Shown here: positions 3,567 through 56,507 of the stretch, in pieces
Layout of the letters: each line of letters opens with the position of its first letter
Numbering within the stretch: position 1 is the first letter of the stretch
Source: a virus
Direction: 5' to 3' (one strand)
DNA: 64,000 nt
IMG/VR virus record: IMGVR_UViG_3300044613_003659
Span: 1-64,000 of that record
Made by a program: the position numbers and the translations under genes
Notes under the pieces: model-generated
Told to the model about the DNA's origin: nothing
What the model saw: the letters and a program-made list of their open reading frames with translations, nothing else
Database searches by the model: none

Positions 3567-4556
3567 ATGCTAGAATATAAAAATATACGCCGTGTTCATT
3601 TAGAAATTTCAACTAGGTGCAACGCGGCGTGCCCTGAGTGTCCAAGAAATTTTCGAGGTGTTGATATAATAGACACATATCCAATATGCGATATGAGTTT
3701 AGAACAAGCTCAACAAATTTTCACAGTTCCTTTCTTATTACAACTTGATCAAATATTAATTAACGGCAATTTTGGAGATTTTATTACTGCTCGTGATGGC
3801 CTGGAAATTGTAGAATATTTTTTATCCTCAAATCAAAAATTAAAAATTATAATAAGTACCAACGCAAGTGGTAGACCAAATATTTGGAAACGTTTAGGGG
3901 AGTTAGGTGTTGAAGTTCAATTTAGATTAGATGGGCTCGAAGATACTCACGTTCTTTACCGTCAATATACCGACTATAATTTAATTATAGAAAACGCTAA
4001 AAAATTTATTGAAGCTGGTGGTGTTGCAGTTTGGGCAATGATAAAATTTAAACACAATCTTCATCAAATTGAAACTGCACAACAATTATCAAAAAAACTA
4101 GGATTTAATAGATTTGAGTTGATTGATGCCGGTAGAGATACTACTGTTGTTTTTACAAGAGATAAAAAATTTAGCCATGTGATAGGTGATTATAACGGTG
4201 ATACGGATTTTAATAATCTGTACGATCAATACAAACACTACATTAAGGATCCTGATTTAACACTTAAAAAAGTACCAATACAAGAGAAAAAGATTTCATG
4301 TTATGCTAAAAAAAATAATGAAATTTATATATCTGCCAATGGGGAAGTATATCCTTGTTGCTGGTTAGGTTTGTATCCCAAAAACAAACCAGGAGATCCA
4401 CGAACATTTCGATTACTCCCTTTAATTAAACAAAATAATGCATTAGAATATGGATTAGACAGGACCATTGAATGGTTTAATGCTATCGAAAAAACTTGGG
4501 ATAAAACTGTGTTAGAAGGTAAAATTTATGCCTGTAACGAAACCTGCGGCATATAA
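3567..4556 (+). CDS. Radical SAM protein with SPASM-like C-terminus
   Basis: The 329-residue protein carries the radical SAM cluster motif CNAACPEC near residue 18. The C-terminal third is cysteine-rich (SCYAKKN, VYPCCWLG, ACNETCGI), which resembles a SPASM/twitch domain binding auxiliary Fe-S clusters. The family makes 5'-deoxyadenosyl radical chemistry, often on peptides or sugars; the substrate here is unknown. It is one of four radical SAM genes in the window. The 3' end overlaps the convergent nucleotidase gene by 31 bases. Confidence 0.88.
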   Translation: MLEYKNIRRVHLEISTRCNAACPECPRNFRGVDIIDTYPICDMSLEQAQQIFTVPFLLQLDQILINGNFGDFITARDGLEIVEYFLSSNQKLKIIISTNASGRPNIWKRLGELGVEVQFRLDGLEDTHVLYRQYTDYNLIIENAKKFIEAGGVAVWAMIKFKHNLHQIETAQQLSKKLGFNRFELIDAGRDTTVVFTRDKKFSHVIGDYNGDTDFNNLYDQYKHYIKDPDLTLKKVPIQEKKISCYAKKNNEIYISANGEVYPCCWLGLYPKNKPGDPRTFRLLPLIKQNNALEYGLDRTIEWFNAIEKTWDKTVLEGKIYACNETCGI

Positions 4557-26042: not shown

Positions 26043-27329
26043 ATGCCAGATCATATTTTAACCAACGACAGCTTTGATAGGTACACTCAAAGAAAAGAAT
26101 GGGCTACAGATAATAAACATATTTGTTATTTGCCTTACAATAGCTTACAATTTTTCCATTCATCCAAATATGTAAGTCCATGTTGTAATTTAATACCAAC
26201 TGTAGAAACAGATTATTTAAGACCCATTATCCAAATCAAAGAAGCGATAAAAAACAAAAAAACTTTTCTAAATTGTTCTATTTGTTACGAATGTGAAGAG
26301 GATGACAAAATTAGCGAAAGAACCCGTTATTTAATCGAACTTACTGATAGTCAGCTCGACAACTTTTTGCGAGAACAAGAAATTACCGCGTTCAATATTC
26401 ATTGTACCTTTAGTAATTTGTGTAATATGGCATGTAGAAGTTGTAATGTTGACACAAGCAGCCTGTTTGCCAAAATTGAAACTGGTCAAGAGATAAAAAC
26501 ACCAACTATTTCAGATGATCCCCAATATTGGAATACAATGTTGGATTCAATTGCAAACGAAGTTAATAAAAGAGAATTAGTAAACCTAGTAATTTCTGGA
26601 GGTGAAGGATTTGTTCAGCCCGATTTTAAAAAACTTTTAGATTGGTTAATTGAGACTAATATAGCCCAAAAAATAAATTTAACAATAAACACAAATGGAA
26701 TAATTGACAACGAAAAATTTATACAATTTTTATGTAACAACTTTAAGATGCTATCTTTGGCTGTCAGCGTAGACAGTATTAACGAAAATTATCATTATGT
26801 AAGATGGCCGGGAACTTGGCAAAAAATAGAAGAAAACTTAAAAACTTTTGCTTATTATAGAAATAATACTAACAATTTTAACTTTTTTTTAACTCCAGTA
26901 TGGAGCACTAACAACATATTTTATGTCGAAGATTGGATTCGTTATTTTGAAAATTTTAAAAAAGAATTTAATTTTCCATATTTTTTTGCCTATGATACAC
27001 CTTTGTATCAACCATCATGGCTAGATATAAAATATATGCCAGCTTATTTAAAAAAACATGCTGCTACAAGTTTATCCACTATACTAAACAATAAATGGTT
27101 ACAGTCAAATAAATCATTATACGTTAATATCAATAACTTGTATTCAATATTGTTAGATACTGATAATTCTGATGAGAAAATTTGGAAATACTATTTACAA
27201 AAAACAGCAGAATGGGATTTAAAAACAAATGCAAAAGCACAAATCTATAACCAAAAAATGTTTAATTTCTTAAGCGAAGAAGATAAAAATCTTTTTAATT
27301 CTAAACAAAAATTGATTTTTAGAAATTAA
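26043..27329 (+). CDS. Radical SAM protein with extra cysteine domains
   Basis: The 428-residue protein has the radical SAM motif CNMACRSC near residue 131 and a later GGEGF motif typical of the SAM pocket. The N-terminus carries more cysteine pairs (VSPCCNL and CSICYECE), as in twitch/SPASM-type clusters but at the opposite end. Phage proteins of this arrangement are known, with unknown substrates. The 3' end overlaps the convergent carbamoyltransferase gene by 11 bases. Confidence 0.85.
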   Translation: MPDHILTNDSFDRYTQRKEWATDNKHICYLPYNSLQFFHSSKYVSPCCNLIPTVETDYLRPIIQIKEAIKNKKTFLNCSICYECEEDDKISERTRYLIELTDSQLDNFLREQEITAFNIHCTFSNLCNMACRSCNVDTSSLFAKIETGQEIKTPTISDDPQYWNTMLDSIANEVNKRELVNLVISGGEGFVQPDFKKLLDWLIETNIAQKINLTINTNGIIDNEKFIQFLCNNFKMLSLAVSVDSINENYHYVRWPGTWQKIEENLKTFAYYRNNTNNFNFFLTPVWSTNNIFYVEDWIRYFENFKKEFNFPYFFAYDTPLYQPSWLDIKYMPAYLKKHAATSLSTILNNKWLQSNKSLYVNINNLYSILLDTDNSDEKIWKYYLQKTAEWDLKTNAKAQIYNQKMFNFLSEEDKNLFNSKQKLIFRN

Positions 27330-30513: not shown

Positions 30514-32472
30514 TTATATTATAATTTCTTTAGAATCATTGAGCCTAGTCCAATTTCCTTGTCCTTCCCAATCTAATACAAAATCATAAATTTTATCTTC
30601 GCTGTTGTAACTGGTGAGATTGGCTTTTACATCATAATGGTGTTTAGAATAATACTCACCAGAATCTAAGATTTTAAATTCTACACTTGCATTAAGTTGA
30701 GTATTGCCATCGTCTGCTGGCATACGACTATGACCCCACTCTAGCATATCAACATTGTGATCAAAGTTCACTGTAATTTCGTAACCGCCGTAGGCTAACC
30801 ATAACGTTCTAAACAATGGCCAAAGTTCATTGACAAGACTATCTGCTACTGGATTGATGTTTGGCTGTATTATATTATAATCAAAATCAGTTTCATATGG
30901 AATAAATGTTCGAGCTTTGTTATCTTTATAATTTAAAGTATAATGTGTCTCTACTCCAGGTCTTTCAATAGCATGTCTATCAGTTCCACGTCGCATGTGA
31001 TTCATAATAATGTTAATACTTTTTAACCTTATTAACCGGTGTAATATTGTGTTTTTATGATCATCTGTTAACCATTGGCCGCCAAGATGATCTAGACTGA
31101 TACCAAATTTTTCTGGCTGTTGACCTAATGGGGTATCGTGTAAAACATAACATGATTGGACAGAATACACTGTAATATTTGTTTGCCGTGTACGCCACAT
31201 TAATGTCATTGTGTGTGCTAGATCTTTAAGATCTTCTCCAGGAAATCCCACAAACCAGGTAGTTATGGCCCCAATTCTTACAGTGGTAATATCTCTCATG
31301 TTTTGTTCAATGGCAGTCACTGATACATTTTTTTTCATGAGATTTAAAACTTTTTGGCTTCCGGATTCAATTCCAAAATTTAAATATTGACAACCTGATT
31401 TTTTTAAATCTTGTAAATACTCTAAATCCATTCTATGGTCGCATCTGCAATATCCGACCCAATTTAAATCATGCAGTCCTTTGGCAACTACTCCTAATGC
31501 AAATGCTCTCAATTCTTTAAGATTACCATTTACTAAACTATCAATAAACCAAATTGTCCTTACATTGAATGTACGATAATGATATTCAATTTCGTCAACA
31601 ATATTTGTTGCTAGTCGCCCGCGATATCTCCAAAAAGTTGTTTCGGAACAAAATTGACATTTAGCCACGCAACCTCGACTTATTTCACTGCCAACCGCTG
31701 TTCCGAGTTCATACAGTTCCAATGGTAAATCTGAATAGTCAGGCCAGGGCATGCTGTCCAAATCTATTCTTTGAGATTTAGGGTGGTATAACATTTTATC
31801 TAAAGGCGGTGAATTTGATTCTATATTTTCTAATAGTTCTAAAAAAATTATCTCACCTTCGCCAGAAACTATATGATCAAACAGTTCCTCATACCTAACC
31901 TGACCTTGCACTGCTTGACTACCACCTCCTAATATTTTAATATTGGGTAATCTTTCTTTTAATTTTCGAATAATCCAAGATGCACAATTATTATTTGTGT
32001 AATAAAGACTGAATCCTGCTATATCTGGTTTAAATTCTACAATACGATCTATTTCTTCTAATAAAATATCTTCTATTAAAGGATGAACTTCTGTCCAATA
32101 AACATCTTGGTCCCATTTCCAATCAAGGTAAGGGCTCCACAAATCTTTTGCTTTATGATAACACAACACATTTAGATCATAGGCACATGATTTAAAACCA
32201 GCACTTTTAGCTAAAGCTGTAAGACGTGCAATATTGTAAGGGGCAATGTGCGGGCTCCAAAAAGGAGCCATAATCATAGCCACTTTCTTTGTCCTAGTCA
32301 CAGGATTAATAATTACAGAACTTAAATTTTTCTGGGGGTTAACTCGGCTAAGTTCGGCTACCCTAGCTAGCATTTGAGTATGAGGGTTTTGATCTGGGCC
32401 ATACAACTGTATGCCATCTACCGGTTCTTCGGAAGCAGAATTTTGAATTTCGATTATATTTTTAGAAATCAT
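30514..32472 (-). CDS. B12-binding-domain radical SAM protein
   Basis: The 652-residue protein has an N-terminal cobalamin-binding-like Rossmann domain (KVAMIMAPFWSPHIAPYNIA, ADIAGFSLYY-type strand, KILGGGSQAV, IVSGEGEIIFLELL). The radical SAM motif RGCVAKCQFCS is near residue 265 and YRGR follows. B12-dependent radical SAM enzymes methylate unactivated carbons or phosphorus, or rearrange rings. The last 200 residues form an extra domain of unknown role. Its stop abuts the FG-GAP gene, so the three genes 30514, 28909 and 27319 form one operon. Confidence 0.9.
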   Translation of the reverse strand: MISKNIIEIQNSASEEPVDGIQLYGPDQNPHTQMLARVAELSRVNPQKNLSSVIINPVTRTKKVAMIMAPFWSPHIAPYNIARLTALAKSAGFKSCAYDLNVLCYHKAKDLWSPYLDWKWDQDVYWTEVHPLIEDILLEEIDRIVEFKPDIAGFSLYYTNNNCASWIIRKLKERLPNIKILGGGSQAVQGQVRYEELFDHIVSGEGEIIFLELLENIESNSPPLDKMLYHPKSQRIDLDSMPWPDYSDLPLELYELGTAVGSEISRGCVAKCQFCSETTFWRYRGRLATNIVDEIEYHYRTFNVRTIWFIDSLVNGNLKELRAFALGVVAKGLHDLNWVGYCRCDHRMDLEYLQDLKKSGCQYLNFGIESGSQKVLNLMKKNVSVTAIEQNMRDITTVRIGAITTWFVGFPGEDLKDLAHTMTLMWRTRQTNITVYSVQSCYVLHDTPLGQQPEKFGISLDHLGGQWLTDDHKNTILHRLIRLKSINIIMNHMRRGTDRHAIERPGVETHYTLNYKDNKARTFIPYETDFDYNIIQPNINPVADSLVNELWPLFRTLWLAYGGYEITVNFDHNVDMLEWGHSRMPADDGNTQLNASVEFKILDSGEYYSKHHYDVKANLTSYNSEDKIYDFVLDWEGQGNWTRLNDSKEIII

Positions 32473-40629: not shown

Positions 40630-41691
40630 ATGAATAAAGTGTTTACAATCAAGCCAAATTTATTTCCAAAGAAAAACTTTAAAGATTTGTACTGCCCGGA
40701 TCCATTTGAAACAGTTCAAATTGATCAAGCAGGTAATGTTCGTTTATGTGGATGCGAAAACTGGCATCCTCAGCAAATAGGAAACATATTTCAACAATCA
40801 TTAGTAGAAATTTTTAATAGTAAATTAGCCAATCAAATTAGACAAAGTATACGTGATGGTTCCTATATATATTGCAACGAACAAACGTGTGGAAGCATAA
40901 TTAATCAAACATTAATTCCGTTAAATAAACTTGACCCAGAGCTTCAAAAAAAATTTACTACCTGCGATTACTTTGAAATGCCTTATACTTTTTATATTGC
41001 CGGCGATGATACTTGTAATCTAAGTTGCCCAAGTTGTCGCACAAGAGTAATTGATAAAAATGAATATAACCTCACGCAAAATTCTGCAGCATTAAATATT
41101 TTAAATGAACAAATTTTCAATGGATCAAGCGATAAAAATATTACTATAAAATTAAGCACATCCGGCGAAGTGTTTGCCAGTACTTTGTTAATGGAATTTG
41201 TTTCAAAATTCAACATTCAAAACTATCCTAAAGCAGAATTTTGGTTTCAAAGTAATGGACTTTTGATCAGCAGTAGATGGAACAGAATAGCGCATATCGC
41301 CGATCACATACAAAATTTCACTATTACAGCAGACAGTTGTACCAAAGCCACTTACGAAAAACTTCGAAGAGGTGGTAAGTTTGAAAAATTGCTTGATAAC
41401 TTAAATTTTTTGAAAATTAAAAAACATCAGCATCATTTTCATTTTATGTTACGTATAGTAGTGCAATATGACAACTATAGCGAACTAGAACAGTTTTATA
41501 ATTTTGCCAAATCGTATGATGTTGATTTAGTTGAATATGTTAGAATCACCAATTGGAACACATATTCTCAAGAACAGTTTTCTAGTATCGATGTCCTTGA
41601 TGCCAGACATCCATTATACGATACTGTTTCTAGTAAATTAAAAGTACTGCACCAGCGACCCGATGTAAAAATTTATGGAGCAACTTTGTAA
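40630..41691 (+). CDS. Radical SAM protein with N-terminal SPASM-like cysteines
   Basis: The 353-residue protein has the radical SAM motif CNLSCPSC near residue 131. Before it, CPDPFETVQIDQAGNVRLCG and a NEQTCGS segment look like a SPASM-type half domain placed N-terminally, as in the gene at 26043. The substrate is unknown. It is one of few plus-strand genes here and has its own late box. Confidence 0.82.
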   Translation: MNKVFTIKPNLFPKKNFKDLYCPDPFETVQIDQAGNVRLCGCENWHPQQIGNIFQQSLVEIFNSKLANQIRQSIRDGSYIYCNEQTCGSIINQTLIPLNKLDPELQKKFTTCDYFEMPYTFYIAGDDTCNLSCPSCRTRVIDKNEYNLTQNSAALNILNEQIFNGSSDKNITIKLSTSGEVFASTLLMEFVSKFNIQNYPKAEFWFQSNGLLISSRWNRIAHIADHIQNFTITADSCTKATYEKLRRGGKFEKLLDNLNFLKIKKHQHHFHFMLRIVVQYDNYSELEQFYNFAKSYDVDLVEYVRITNWNTYSQEQFSSIDVLDARHPLYDTVSSKLKVLHQRPDVKIYGATL

Positions 41692-46633: not shown

Positions 46634-46655
46634 TTTGTAGTCAACCTGATTTGAT

Positions 46656-46682
46656 AAAAAAGCCCGATAGTTGGGCTTTTTT
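46656..46682. terminator. Rho-independent terminator of the pqqA-like gene
   Basis: AAAAAAGCCC and GGGCTTTTTT close a short loop, about 25 bases after the pqqA-like stop. It works on either strand. Confidence 0.9.
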
Positions 46683-46705
46683 ATTTTTAAAAAGTTAACA
46701 ATGAA

Positions 46706-46780
46706 TTAACGATTTGCAATATACATAGTGATTTCAAAACCAAAACGCATATCATTTGCTTGTGGTGTAGTCCATGCCAT
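46706..46780 (-). CDS. pqqA: PqqA-like PQQ precursor peptide (24 residues)
   Basis: The peptide starts MAWTTPQANDM and ends RFGFEITMYIANR. The length, the N-terminal WT-P and the C-terminal GFE-x-TMY-x-NR block are those of proteobacterial PqqA. Glu16 and Tyr20, the two residues PqqE cross-links and that become PQQ, are at the canonical ExxxY spacing. AAGGAG lies 7 bases upstream of the ATG. The gene has its own TATAAT promoter, a 5' hairpin and a terminator. No PqqB, C, D or E is seen in this window, so host enzymes would have to process it, or it is a decoy. Confidence 0.9.
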   Translation of the reverse strand: MAWTTPQANDMRFGFEITMYIANR

Positions 46781-46804
46781 TTTATTTCTCCTTGATTAAA
46801 ATTA

Positions 46805-46858
46805 ACATACTGCACAAGTATGTATCACGATTATACCTTATGTTGCGGTGCATTTGCA
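46805..46858 (-). promoter_or_regulatory. Promoter and 5' stem-loop of the pqqA-like gene
   Basis: TATAAT (46830-46835) with a weak TGCAAA -35 at a 17-base spacing (46853-46858). A stem ACATAC/GTATGT (46805-46823) would be at the very 5' end of the mRNA, followed by about 20 bases to the ribosome site. Confidence 0.65.
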
Positions 46859-46880
46859 TCCATGGCATCATGATTTTGTA

Positions 46881-47072
46881 CTAGTGATTTTCTTTAGCAC
46901 CAGTGCCCCATTTTAGTTTTAACCACAATCTTTCGTGTATATAGTGAGCTATAGTCATAAAAATATTAATTACTATAGCACCACTCAAACCTGTCCATAC
47001 TGCTGTAACTAATGTAGCTACTATACGCCATGTTATCGCTCTGATAATTGTTCTTTTATGTGTTTCTGTCAA
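46881..47072 (-). CDS. DUF2061-type small membrane protein
   Basis: The 63-residue protein has RAITWRIVATLVTAVWTGLS, a second hydrophobic stretch (IVINIFMTIAHYI) and the HERLWLKLKWG end typical of DUF2061. The family spans the membrane twice, and function is unknown. It is upstream of and co-oriented with the pqqA-like gene. A terminator lies just upstream of its start. Confidence 0.78.
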   Translation of the reverse strand: MTETHKRTIIRAITWRIVATLVTAVWTGLSGAIVINIFMTIAHYIHERLWLKLKWGTGAKENH

Positions 47073-51903: not shown

Positions 51904-53310
51904 TTAAAAGTTCAATTGGCTTCTAAACATAATTGCTTGGTCGCCATTTACACGGCTACCTGAACTACCAACTAATTGATCAAACTTGGTGTCAACATAA
52001 TTGACGGTGAATCGTAGATTGTCAGTGGCAAACCAAGTTAGGCCGTATGTGATTGCTGTAGCACGGTTAGTTTTGCCAGCAACCACTGTGATCGGGCTAG
52101 CATCAAACTCACTGGCTCGTATACCCACTTGCCAAGCACCGCGTCCACCTTTGTCTACAGGATTAGCGGGTTTAACTGAACTAAACACCCCATCCCGATA
52201 GTTATAGCTTTCACCGGTTAAATTGTACACAGCTTGAACATAATAACCTTTAATTTCTTGATCTGAACCTGTAGCAGGATCGTATCGAAAGTTAAATTGT
52301 TCTGCTTGTACCTTGAATGCATTGTAAGCAAATGCAGCTTCTAAGCCTTGACGAGTTCTATTAGTTACGCCACTCAGAGCAGGTCCAGTGAAGAATGTAT
52401 TAGCTGAACGCGATTCTGTTCTGCCACTGGATGGAGTAACACCGCCTTTGATTTCACCTGTACTGTATGCAGCTCCCAAATGTGCAACGTAAGTTTTTAC
52501 ACCTTGTATGTCGGCAATATTGGTAGTAACACGACCAATATAGTCAAAGCCATCACTTACAGCATCCTTGTTGGCACGACCTCGGCTGGCTGCTAGAGCA
52601 TATGTAAAACCAGGTTTTGGTACACCATGTAACATGAAGCCAGTTTCCTTACCAGGAATGAACTCGCCTTCGACCTGGCCGATCAAACTACGCTCCATAA
52701 AGTCTATGTTATTAGAACTAGTTAATTGTTCCAAGCTGAATGGCATTTTGAATAAACCAAATTGAAACTGAGCTTCTGGATTAGCAGCGTAGTTTACCCA
52801 GGCCACATCCATGGTAGTAGTCGAACTTGATGCTCCAACATCGTTGCCTAAGTTGCCTACAATCTCATATTTGAAATCTTTTTGAAATTGACCACGTACA
52901 CCAAACCTAGCTCTACGTACTTCTGCTAGGTTCTGGTACGAATCCGTGGTTTGACCTGCACCATAAGCGGGTGAGTACTGACGATAGTCCATGTGTAATC
53001 GACCTGTAAGTTGGATGGTACTGTTTCCATCCTTGCTTTTGAGTCCGATTCCATTTTCAGCGACCGATCCATCGTTTGCTCTGGCTTGTCTGTATTTGAC
53101 TGATTCACTGACATCTTTGTCGATTCTTTGTTCGGCAAACTTTTTGTTTTCCGCTTTTTCTTCGTATGCTTTGACTTTAACATCATATTCTGTTTGTGTC
53201 AATACGCCTTTGTCTCTCAAGATGTTAAGTGTTTCTAAATACTCGTCTGCATATGCAGGTACACTGAATACCAAACTGATAGCCAATGCAATTTTTGTAA
53301 ATGCTTTCAT
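51904..53310 (-). CDS. Phosphate-selective porin (OprO/OprP family)
   Basis: The 468-residue protein has a signal peptide (KIALAISLVFSVPAYA), a periplasmic coiled-coil segment (EYLETLNILRDKGVLTQTEY), then a beta-barrel of the Porin_O_P type (LTGRLHMDYRQY, EVRRARFGVRGQF, FGLFKMPFSLEQL, KGYYVQAVYNLTGE) and a C-terminal Phe (FRSQLNF) for outer-membrane insertion. It would place a phosphate channel in the host outer membrane. It is 10 bases downstream of pstS. Confidence 0.92.
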   Translation of the reverse strand: MKAFTKIALAISLVFSVPAYADEYLETLNILRDKGVLTQTEYDVKVKAYEEKAENKKFAEQRIDKDVSESVKYRQARANDGSVAENGIGLKSKDGNSTIQLTGRLHMDYRQYSPAYGAGQTTDSYQNLAEVRRARFGVRGQFQKDFKYEIVGNLGNDVGASSSTTTMDVAWVNYAANPEAQFQFGLFKMPFSLEQLTSSNNIDFMERSLIGQVEGEFIPGKETGFMLHGVPKPGFTYALAASRGRANKDAVSDGFDYIGRVTTNIADIQGVKTYVAHLGAAYSTGEIKGGVTPSSGRTESRSANTFFTGPALSGVTNRTRQGLEAAFAYNAFKVQAEQFNFRYDPATGSDQEIKGYYVQAVYNLTGESYNYRDGVFSSVKPANPVDKGGRGAWQVGIRASEFDASPITVVAGKTNRATAITYGLTWFATDNLRFTVNYVDTKFDQLVGSSGSRVNGDQAIMFRSQLNF

Positions 53311-53319
53311 TTCGGTTCC

Positions 53320-54345
53320 TTATTTCCAAATTGGGTTACCATCAGGACCACGGAAATCTCGCTTCCAGTTTTCCTGAACTAGTTTAATTACATCGGCTGG
53401 CATGTGAACATACTCTAACTCTGTTGACATCTGGCCACCGTTCTTGTAGCTCCAATCAAAGAACTTGAGAACTGCACGACCTGTCAGTGCATCTGCTTGC
53501 TGCTTGTGCATGAGAATAAAACTTGCACCTGTAGCTGGCCAAGCATCCTTACCTGTTTGCCATGTCAGTAATAAATACATACCTGGTGCATTCGCCCAAT
53601 CAGCATTAGCGGCTGCTGCTTTGAATGTAGTGTCGTCGGGTAATACAAAGTTACCATCACGATTCTTTAGTGCTGCGTATGGAATCTTATTGCGTTTTGC
53701 ATATGCATATTCAACATAACCAAATGCACCTTTCAGTCTTTGTACTTGTGCTGCAACACCTTCATTACCTTTACCACCTACACCAACTGGCCACTTGACT
53801 GCTGTACCTTCGCCGACTGTCTTTTGAAAGTCTGCGTTGGCTTTACCCAAAAAGTTTGTCCAGATAAATGTGGTGCCTGAACCATCAGCACGATGAACTA
53901 CAGTGATGTTCATTGCAGGCAAGTTTACACCAGGATTCAAATCAGTAATTGCTTTGTCATTCCATTTGGTAATTTTACCAAGATGAATGTTTGCAATTAC
54001 ATCAGGTGTCAACTTTAGTTTACCTGCATCAACACCATCAAGATTGTAAACTGGTACAACACCACCAATGATTGCTGGAAACTGTACTAGACCTTCTTTG
54101 TCTAGTTCTTCTTTTTTGAGTGGCATATCACTTGCACCAAAGTCAACTGTCTTGGCTTTGATTTGACGAATACCGCCACCTGAACCAATTGACTGATAAT
54201 TTAAACCAATGCCAGTTTGTGCTTTGTAGGCTTCTGCCCATTTAGCGTAGATAGGAAAAGGAAATGTTGCTCCTGCTCCAGTGAATTCTGCGGCTGTTGC
54301 AGTAACAGCTAGGGTAGCAAATACAATTGCCAAAAGTTTTTTCAT
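53320..54345 (-). CDS. pstS: Phosphate-binding periplasmic protein PstS
   Basis: From the ATG at 54345 the protein has 341 residues. A signal peptide (MKKLLAIVFATLAVTATAA) is followed by GAGATFPFPIYAKWAEAYK, SIGSGGGIRQI, DFGASDMPL, HRADGSGTTFIWTNFL and the PstS end WKRDF. It delivers phosphate to PstCAB of the host inner membrane. pstS is a known phage gene in marine myoviruses. The candidate Pho box upstream suggests induction through host PhoB. Confidence 0.96.
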   Translation of the reverse strand: MKKLLAIVFATLAVTATAAEFTGAGATFPFPIYAKWAEAYKAQTGIGLNYQSIGSGGGIRQIKAKTVDFGASDMPLKKEELDKEGLVQFPAIIGGVVPVYNLDGVDAGKLKLTPDVIANIHLGKITKWNDKAITDLNPGVNLPAMNITVVHRADGSGTTFIWTNFLGKANADFQKTVGEGTAVKWPVGVGGKGNEGVAAQVQRLKGAFGYVEYAYAKRNKIPYAALKNRDGNFVLPDDTTFKAAAANADWANAPGMYLLLTWQTGKDAWPATGASFILMHKQQADALTGRAVLKFFDWSYKNGGQMSTELEYVHMPADVIKLVQENWKRDFRGPDGNPIWK

Positions 54346-54397
54346 TCTGTAATCTCCATTTAATGTGCGATGCACAATAATATTTAAACACACTAAG

Positions 54398-56019: not shown

Positions 56020-56027
56020 TATTTATA
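56020..56027 (-). promoter_or_regulatory. T4-type late promoter box (exact TATAAATA)
   Basis: Exact consensus on the minus strand, just after the tmRNA terminator and about 25 bases upstream of the ATG at 55995. Confidence 0.7.
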
Positions 56028-56052
56028 AAAATAGGCACCTAAGTGCCTATTA
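56028..56052 (-). terminator. Rho-independent terminator of the tmRNA gene
   Basis: The minus strand reads AATAGGCAC-TTA-GGTGCCTATT followed by TTTAT. It ends the tmRNA coding piece. Confidence 0.88.
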
Positions 56053-56365
<313 letters not shown>

Positions 56366-56372
56366 AATACGT

Positions 56373-56507
56373 TTACTTACGTAAAAACCAAATCATATCT
56401 AAATATTTTTGAAGATGTTTTTCTTGAACGGATTTAGCCCAACTTGGTTGTGGTAAATTCCACCCAATAAATGCACCTACCATAATCCAAAAAATTGTTT
56501 CTAACAT
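56373..56507 (-). CDS. Small membrane protein (44 residues)
   Basis: AAAGGAG precedes the ATG at 56507. The product begins MLETIFWIMVGAFIGWNLPQ, one hydrophobic segment, then an amphipathic tail (SVQEKHLQKYLDMIWFLRK). It stops just before the tmRNA acceptor piece. Confidence 0.62.
   Translation of the reverse strand: MLETIFWIMVGAFIGWNLPQPSWAKSVQEKHLQKYLDMIWFLRK

Follow-up and report, generated by a model that had tools for sequence, protein, structure and literature searches.

A stand-alone pqqA gene on a movable cassette in a large T4-like phage suggests that phages of PQQ-using bacteria feed a cofactor precursor to their hosts

The window analysed here, a stretch of 64,000 nucleotides, corresponds to bases 1–64,000 of a 107,596-base (107.6-kb) virus record, IMGVR_UViG_3300044613_003659, and its gene content indicates that it is part of a large T4-like phage. 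The genes around the short open reading frame (ORF) described below include those for PhoH, a T4-type clamp loader and a phage-type DNA polymerase, together with tail-type matches, and the window further carries 24 tRNAs, one tmRNA, pstS, a phosphate porin gene and genes for a TauD-type oxygenase and a rubrerythrin. The tmRNA (56026–56415, minus strand) is of the betaproteobacterial type, also matches the permuted tmRNA model and has the tag ANAANDEVFALAA. The pstS gene adjoins that for the phosphate porin; this pair is conserved in phage G012 (82–87% protein identity), and a similar pair is found in L261. The features at the locus are the following:

46644..46901, minus strand: 258-bp cassette, present in the window phage and absent from its sister phage L349
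46655..46683, minus strand: putative intrinsic-terminator hairpin AAAAAAGCCC..GGGCTTTTTT with a T run (-13.2 kcal/mol, z -3.9)
46706..46780, minus strand: pqqA ORF, 24 amino acids, MAWTTPQANDMRFGFEITMYIANR, with Glu16 and Tyr20; ATG at 46780, stop at 46706
46788..46793, minus strand: ribosome-binding site AAGGAG, 7 nt before the pqqA ATG
46805..46823, minus strand: leader hairpin ACATACT...AGTATGT, just behind the expected transcript start
46830..46835, minus strand: -10-like TATAAT box, 55 nt before the ATG and likewise positioned in L014 and L257
48121..48585, minus strand: rubrerythrin-like gene, whose homologues in relatives have pqqA about 1–1.5 kb downstream or directly upstream
51904..54393, minus strand: phosphate porin (Porin_O_P) and pstS, near pqqA also in relatives L257 and L261

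An earlier note on this DNA had placed a frame at 46706–46780 and left its strand unstated. The coordinates hold and the strand is minus: translation from 46780 to 46706 yields an intact frame of 24 codons, and the plus strand of the interval contains no such peptide. The length, the good ribosome site and the ExxxY spacing of Glu16 and Tyr20 described there are all correct. The signature of PqqA that the note recognized is confirmed by both curated models, the peptide scoring 40.7 bits (E=2e-10) against Pfam PF08042 (PqqA; cut-off, 21.1 bits) and 38.4 bits against the NCBIfam PqqA equivalog TIGR02107 (cut-off, 20 bits). PF08042 had zero matches in 14 control genomes and exactly one in the 107,596-base record. 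The likeness to PqqA extends over the length, the WTxP start, the MRFGFEITMY core and the Glu16/Tyr20 spacing, these two residues being the counterparts of those cross-linked by PqqE in Methylorubrum PqqA (PMC10906245). The frame combines a start codon and a ribosome site with the selection on a short peptide gene described below. A chance ORF is ruled out by the model scores and conservation, and the ORF is pqqA, predicted to encode the precursor peptide of the bacterial redox cofactor pyrroloquinoline quinone (PQQ).

Judging from its predicted signals, the pqqA unit is self-contained: within 258 bp, the ORF and its ribosome site are preceded by a -10-like box and a leader hairpin and followed by a putative terminator. 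The promoter is only suggested, since there is no clear -35 and the TATAAT box is not among the sigma-70 consensus matches. The leader hairpin, probably located at the 5' end of the pqqA mRNA, is kept in several relatives with differing stem sequences. When scored against shuffles, the predicted folding of the 45-nt stretch preceding the ribosome site in 115 viral copies had a mean z of -1.16, compared to -0.23 in control regions, and bacterial pqqA genes show a similar enrichment of leader folding over control regions. Downstream, many related pqqA copies are followed by a hairpin and a T run.

Typically, pqqA precedes pqqBCDE, an arrangement which is common, not defining, given the many solo pqqA copies of methylotrophs, and which is not found in the window record. 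Unlike its bacterial counterparts, the window gene resides in a phage, alone, without pqqBCDE and on a free-standing cassette. As had been noted, there is no other pqq gene in the window, where tblastn of PqqB–E found nothing; PqqE, PqqD and PqqB have no match, and there is no PQQ-repeat enzyme, anywhere in the 107.6-kb record. The window does encode four radical SAM proteins (3567–4556, 26043–27329, 30514–32472 and 40630–41691), one B12-binding, one with a twitch domain and two distantly SPASM-like; a PqqE among them is ruled out, as none matches the PqqE model. Given that PqqE is itself a radical SAM enzyme, the four proteins invite the idea that the PqqA-derived peptide has another role, for example as a signal, or that one of these phage enzymes converts it to a product other than PQQ. 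However, this appears highly improbable, considering that none of the four resembles PqqE and that, among the carriers searched, the cultured phages and almost all of the others have pqqA without any PqqE-like match, with no match to the PqqE model reaching the cut-off.

To establish how widespread the gene is, the window peptide was compared by tblastn with 50,697 phage records, yielding 12 matches. Nine of these are methylophage records (four Melnitz isolates, P19250A, MEP301, MEP401, MEP402 and Venkman), which fall in several phage groups, and the remainder comprise a phage genome from spring water and two bacterial contigs under a wrong label. The latter, filed as 'Acinetobacter phage MD-2021a' (CAKLQF020000010.1 and CAKLQH020000055.1; L008 and L010), contain pqq operon genes, one stretch having a complete pqqABCDE, and were set aside. 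All cultured methylophage records that could be checked contain pqqA; the Methylophilales phages MEP431–434 and EXVC038S, which are in the taxonomy, are not among the matches. In the records examined, phage pqqA is either unannotated or lies under an antisense hypothetical ORF, and in methylophages it is never labelled as pqqA. Such antisense ORFs are annotated over the true gene at L002:4967-5062 and L004:2067-2195 (Melnitz and ctXG6705). Papers describing these methylophages make no mention of pqqA, and PHROGs has no family matching phage PqqA, in line with the expectation that a gene this short is easily missed by gene callers. In IMG/VR, a degenerate DNA pattern recovered at least 120 stretches with a stand-alone pqqA. 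All copies inspected encode an intact peptide with an ATG, and nearly all have a clear AAGGAG-type ribosome site. No PqqB–E was found by tblastn at these viral loci, whereas many bacterial loci retrieved with the same pattern have matches.

As Glu and Tyr are prescribed by this first pattern, their conservation was judged from a second one, in which both were left free and only the N-terminal half of the peptide was fixed. The ExxxY pair is present in all 129 viral copies recovered in this way, which represent 116 distinct DNA sequences and split almost evenly in the Tyr codon (TAT in 64, TAC in 65). Across the nine C-terminal codons, the pN/pS ratio comes to 0.16, and pN is zero at Glu, Thr and Tyr. 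Viral pqqA is under strong purifying selection, and the frame is conserved in related phages, so that neither of the outcomes singled out beforehand as speaking against the gene, a frame unconserved in related phages or an excess of coding changes, was encountered.

This conservation bears on the possibility that the phage peptide is a decoy, occupying PqqD/PqqE or the protease and thereby slowing host PQQ synthesis or diverting the enzymes. A solo gene in a record devoid of pathway enzymes would be compatible with such a role, and host PqqA would face competition from an abundance of substrate peptide. A decoy, however, has no need for an intact Glu/Tyr pair, which would be expected to drift, yet the ExxxY is found in every copy and no viral copy lacks Glu or Tyr. 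Moreover, some pqqA carriers also encode a PQQ enzyme, and 49 of 126 viral peptides (about 40%) are identical to a bacterial PqqA and so should be turned over. With the reactive residues never lost and many peptides the same as those of the host, we regard the decoy as unlikely; of the two uses proposed in the earlier note, the data favour extra precursor for PQQ-dependent dehydrogenases over a diversion of PqqD/PqqE.

Relatives of the window phage were collected through neighbouring genes, independently of pqqA, and their flanks of 10 kb or less were searched. PqqA was found in the flanks of 11 of the 80 loci identified with PstS and 17 of the 80 identified with rubrerythrin, a patchiness from which pqqA appears dispensable in this phage group. 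The closest relative, L349 (99% identity in rubrerythrin and 94% in PstS), is colinear with the window on both sides of the cassette and has 2 bases in place of 46644–46901, the exact edges being blurred by divergence. The position of the cassette relative to rubrerythrin varies among relatives, and in L368 it is 92% identical to that of the window compared to 70–84% for the flanks, as expected of movement by recombination. By these comparisons, the pqqA cassette is movable. Bacterial contamination of the record is ruled out, since phage genes flank pqqA and the same cassette occurs in related phages.

A patchy distribution and the clean absence of the cassette from a sister phage could also denote a neutral or recently captured host gene without a role in infection, and as hosts carry many pqqA copies, capture would be easy. 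Nevertheless, the strong purifying selection across 116 distinct DNA versions, the occurrence mainly in methylophages among cultured phages and the dedicated, if predicted, transcription signals render this explanation improbable. In genomic terms, pqqA resembles phage auxiliary metabolic genes: it is a host-like metabolic gene residing in a genuine phage genome, present in cultured phages too and dispensable among relatives.

The viral peptides also carry information on hosts. Those of methylophages are of the MWTxPxATEMRFGFEVTMYVMNK type, as in Methylophilaceae, whereas the tail of the window peptide, DMRFGFEITMYIANR, is exactly that of PqqA from Comamonadaceae, Thauera, Limnobacter and Hydrogenophaga, with which the core is identical as well. 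The window peptide matches the Burkholderiales type at 18 of 21 positions and the Methylophilales type at 16 of 21, so that a Methylophilales host for the window phage is unsupported; PstS, with best near-full-length identities of 63% against 59%, does not discriminate between the two. Because the peptide ends like the above PqqAs, we think that the host is of Burkholderiales type. pqqA occurs in only 20 of 101 genomes of the family of the Comamonadaceae MAG and in 149 of 150 Methylophilaceae genomes, most of which have several copies (up to 12). Multiple pqqA copies in Methylophilaceae, with the rest of the pathway usually in single copy, have been published (PMC4109929). In the OM43 genome LSUCC0665 (G003), none of the three pqqA copies is near pqqB, precursor and enzymes being unlinked in the host. 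Such orphan pqqA genes resemble the viral ones in being solo and dispersed, with their own ribosome site and often a terminator, but are chromosomal, coexist with pqqBCDE in the same cell and are of the EVTMYVMNK type as opposed to EITMYIANR in the window.

A link to methanol oxidation is provided by five viral contigs encoding a XoxF-type PQQ methanol dehydrogenase, with the family match over the cut-off in both of those tested. In all three contigs with sequence beyond xoxF, pqqA follows, at distances of 199 bp, 3.6 kb and 6 kb. One of these three (G019; IMGVR_UViG_3300025120_009955) has the lanthanide-type DYDG motif in its XoxF, as read from the sequence, and phage traits including phage-type exonucleases, an endonuclease and a ribonucleotide reductase. 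In the same contig (L256:5990-10784), xoxF adjoins a gene for the formate dehydrogenase alpha subunit (TIGR01591, 884.8 bits), accompanied by a csgG-like curli gene and pqqA, and this gene group is possibly a viral C1-oxidation set.

pqqA is thus carried by many phages of PQQ-using, and especially methanol-eating, bacteria, suggesting that these phages feed the precursor to their hosts during infection. Each PQQ uses up one PqqA, whereas PqqBCDE are reusable catalysts, so that the precursor alone could keep PQQ up, or increase it, once the host no longer transcribes its genes. Presumably, the 24-residue peptide would be made during infection from the phage's own small transcription unit. It would be bound by PqqD and PqqE of the host, with Glu16 and Tyr20 becoming cross-linked, and the host protease, PqqB and PqqC would complete the cofactor. 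Periplasmic quinoproteins (XoxF/MxaF methanol dehydrogenases or related alcohol dehydrogenases) would stay loaded with the extra PQQ, and respiration would continue. The analysis establishes the identity and conservation of the gene, its solo cassette, its host-matched sequence and its company with viral XoxF; expression, processing, the increase in PQQ and the benefit to the phage are inferred here, and PqqA is assumed to be limiting in infected cells. Of the pathway genes, only that for the substrate, pqqA, is multiplied, in hosts as in phages, and not pqqBCDE. Against this reading stand the patchy occurrence in the window's own phage group, the lack of a PQQ enzyme in its record and the low share of pqqA carriers in the family of the Comamonadaceae MAG. 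Overall, we consider it likely that phage-borne pqqA is an auxiliary metabolic gene which supplies only the substrate of a cofactor pathway and thereby raises or sustains host PQQ during infection.

One viral PqqA has already been published, so the kind is known: Lake Baikal virus VP_266 (2020) encodes PqqA together with a methanol dehydrogenase, and a PQQ boost was proposed (PMC7678222). Our search of the open-access literature for viral PqqA or viral methanol dehydrogenase returned that paper alone; pqqA also figures among listed reservoir viral genes (PMC13188868). VP_266 is a single virus linked to methylotrophs, whereas the window phage lacks a PQQ enzyme and has a Burkholderiales-type peptide. 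As far as these searches show, what looks new is the presence of pqqA in every checkable cultured methylophage, its systematic omission from annotation and its stand-alone cassette, as well as its occurrence in a second phage group, where the peptide is of Burkholderiales type and a PQQ enzyme is lacking. The movable 258-bp cassette, the generality among methylophages, the viral methanol dehydrogenase partner and the hint of a Burkholderiales-type host had all escaped the earlier note. In common with other morons or small auxiliary metabolic genes known from T4-like phages, pqqA forms a self-contained, patchily distributed cassette that brings its own signals and has tRNA, pstS and porin genes nearby; unlike other such genes, it would provide a consumable substrate rather than an enzyme.

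More broadly, it is quite possible, though slightly less likely than not, that a substrate-only gene, in the form of a movable cassette matched to the host, has entered phages of PQQ-dependent bacteria repeatedly and in several groups, and that precursor supply is a general bottleneck in infected methylotrophs and some Burkholderiales. If so, a gene too short for gene callers would be among the commonest metabolic genes of methylophages while missing from their published descriptions, and its 24-residue product would be a simple marker by which to recognize, in metagenomes, phages that infect PQQ-dependent bacteria. The proposal could be tested at once with the cultured phages Venkman, Melnitz, MEP301 and P19250A. 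If true, cofactor supply, not enzyme supply, would limit methanol oxidation in infected cells.
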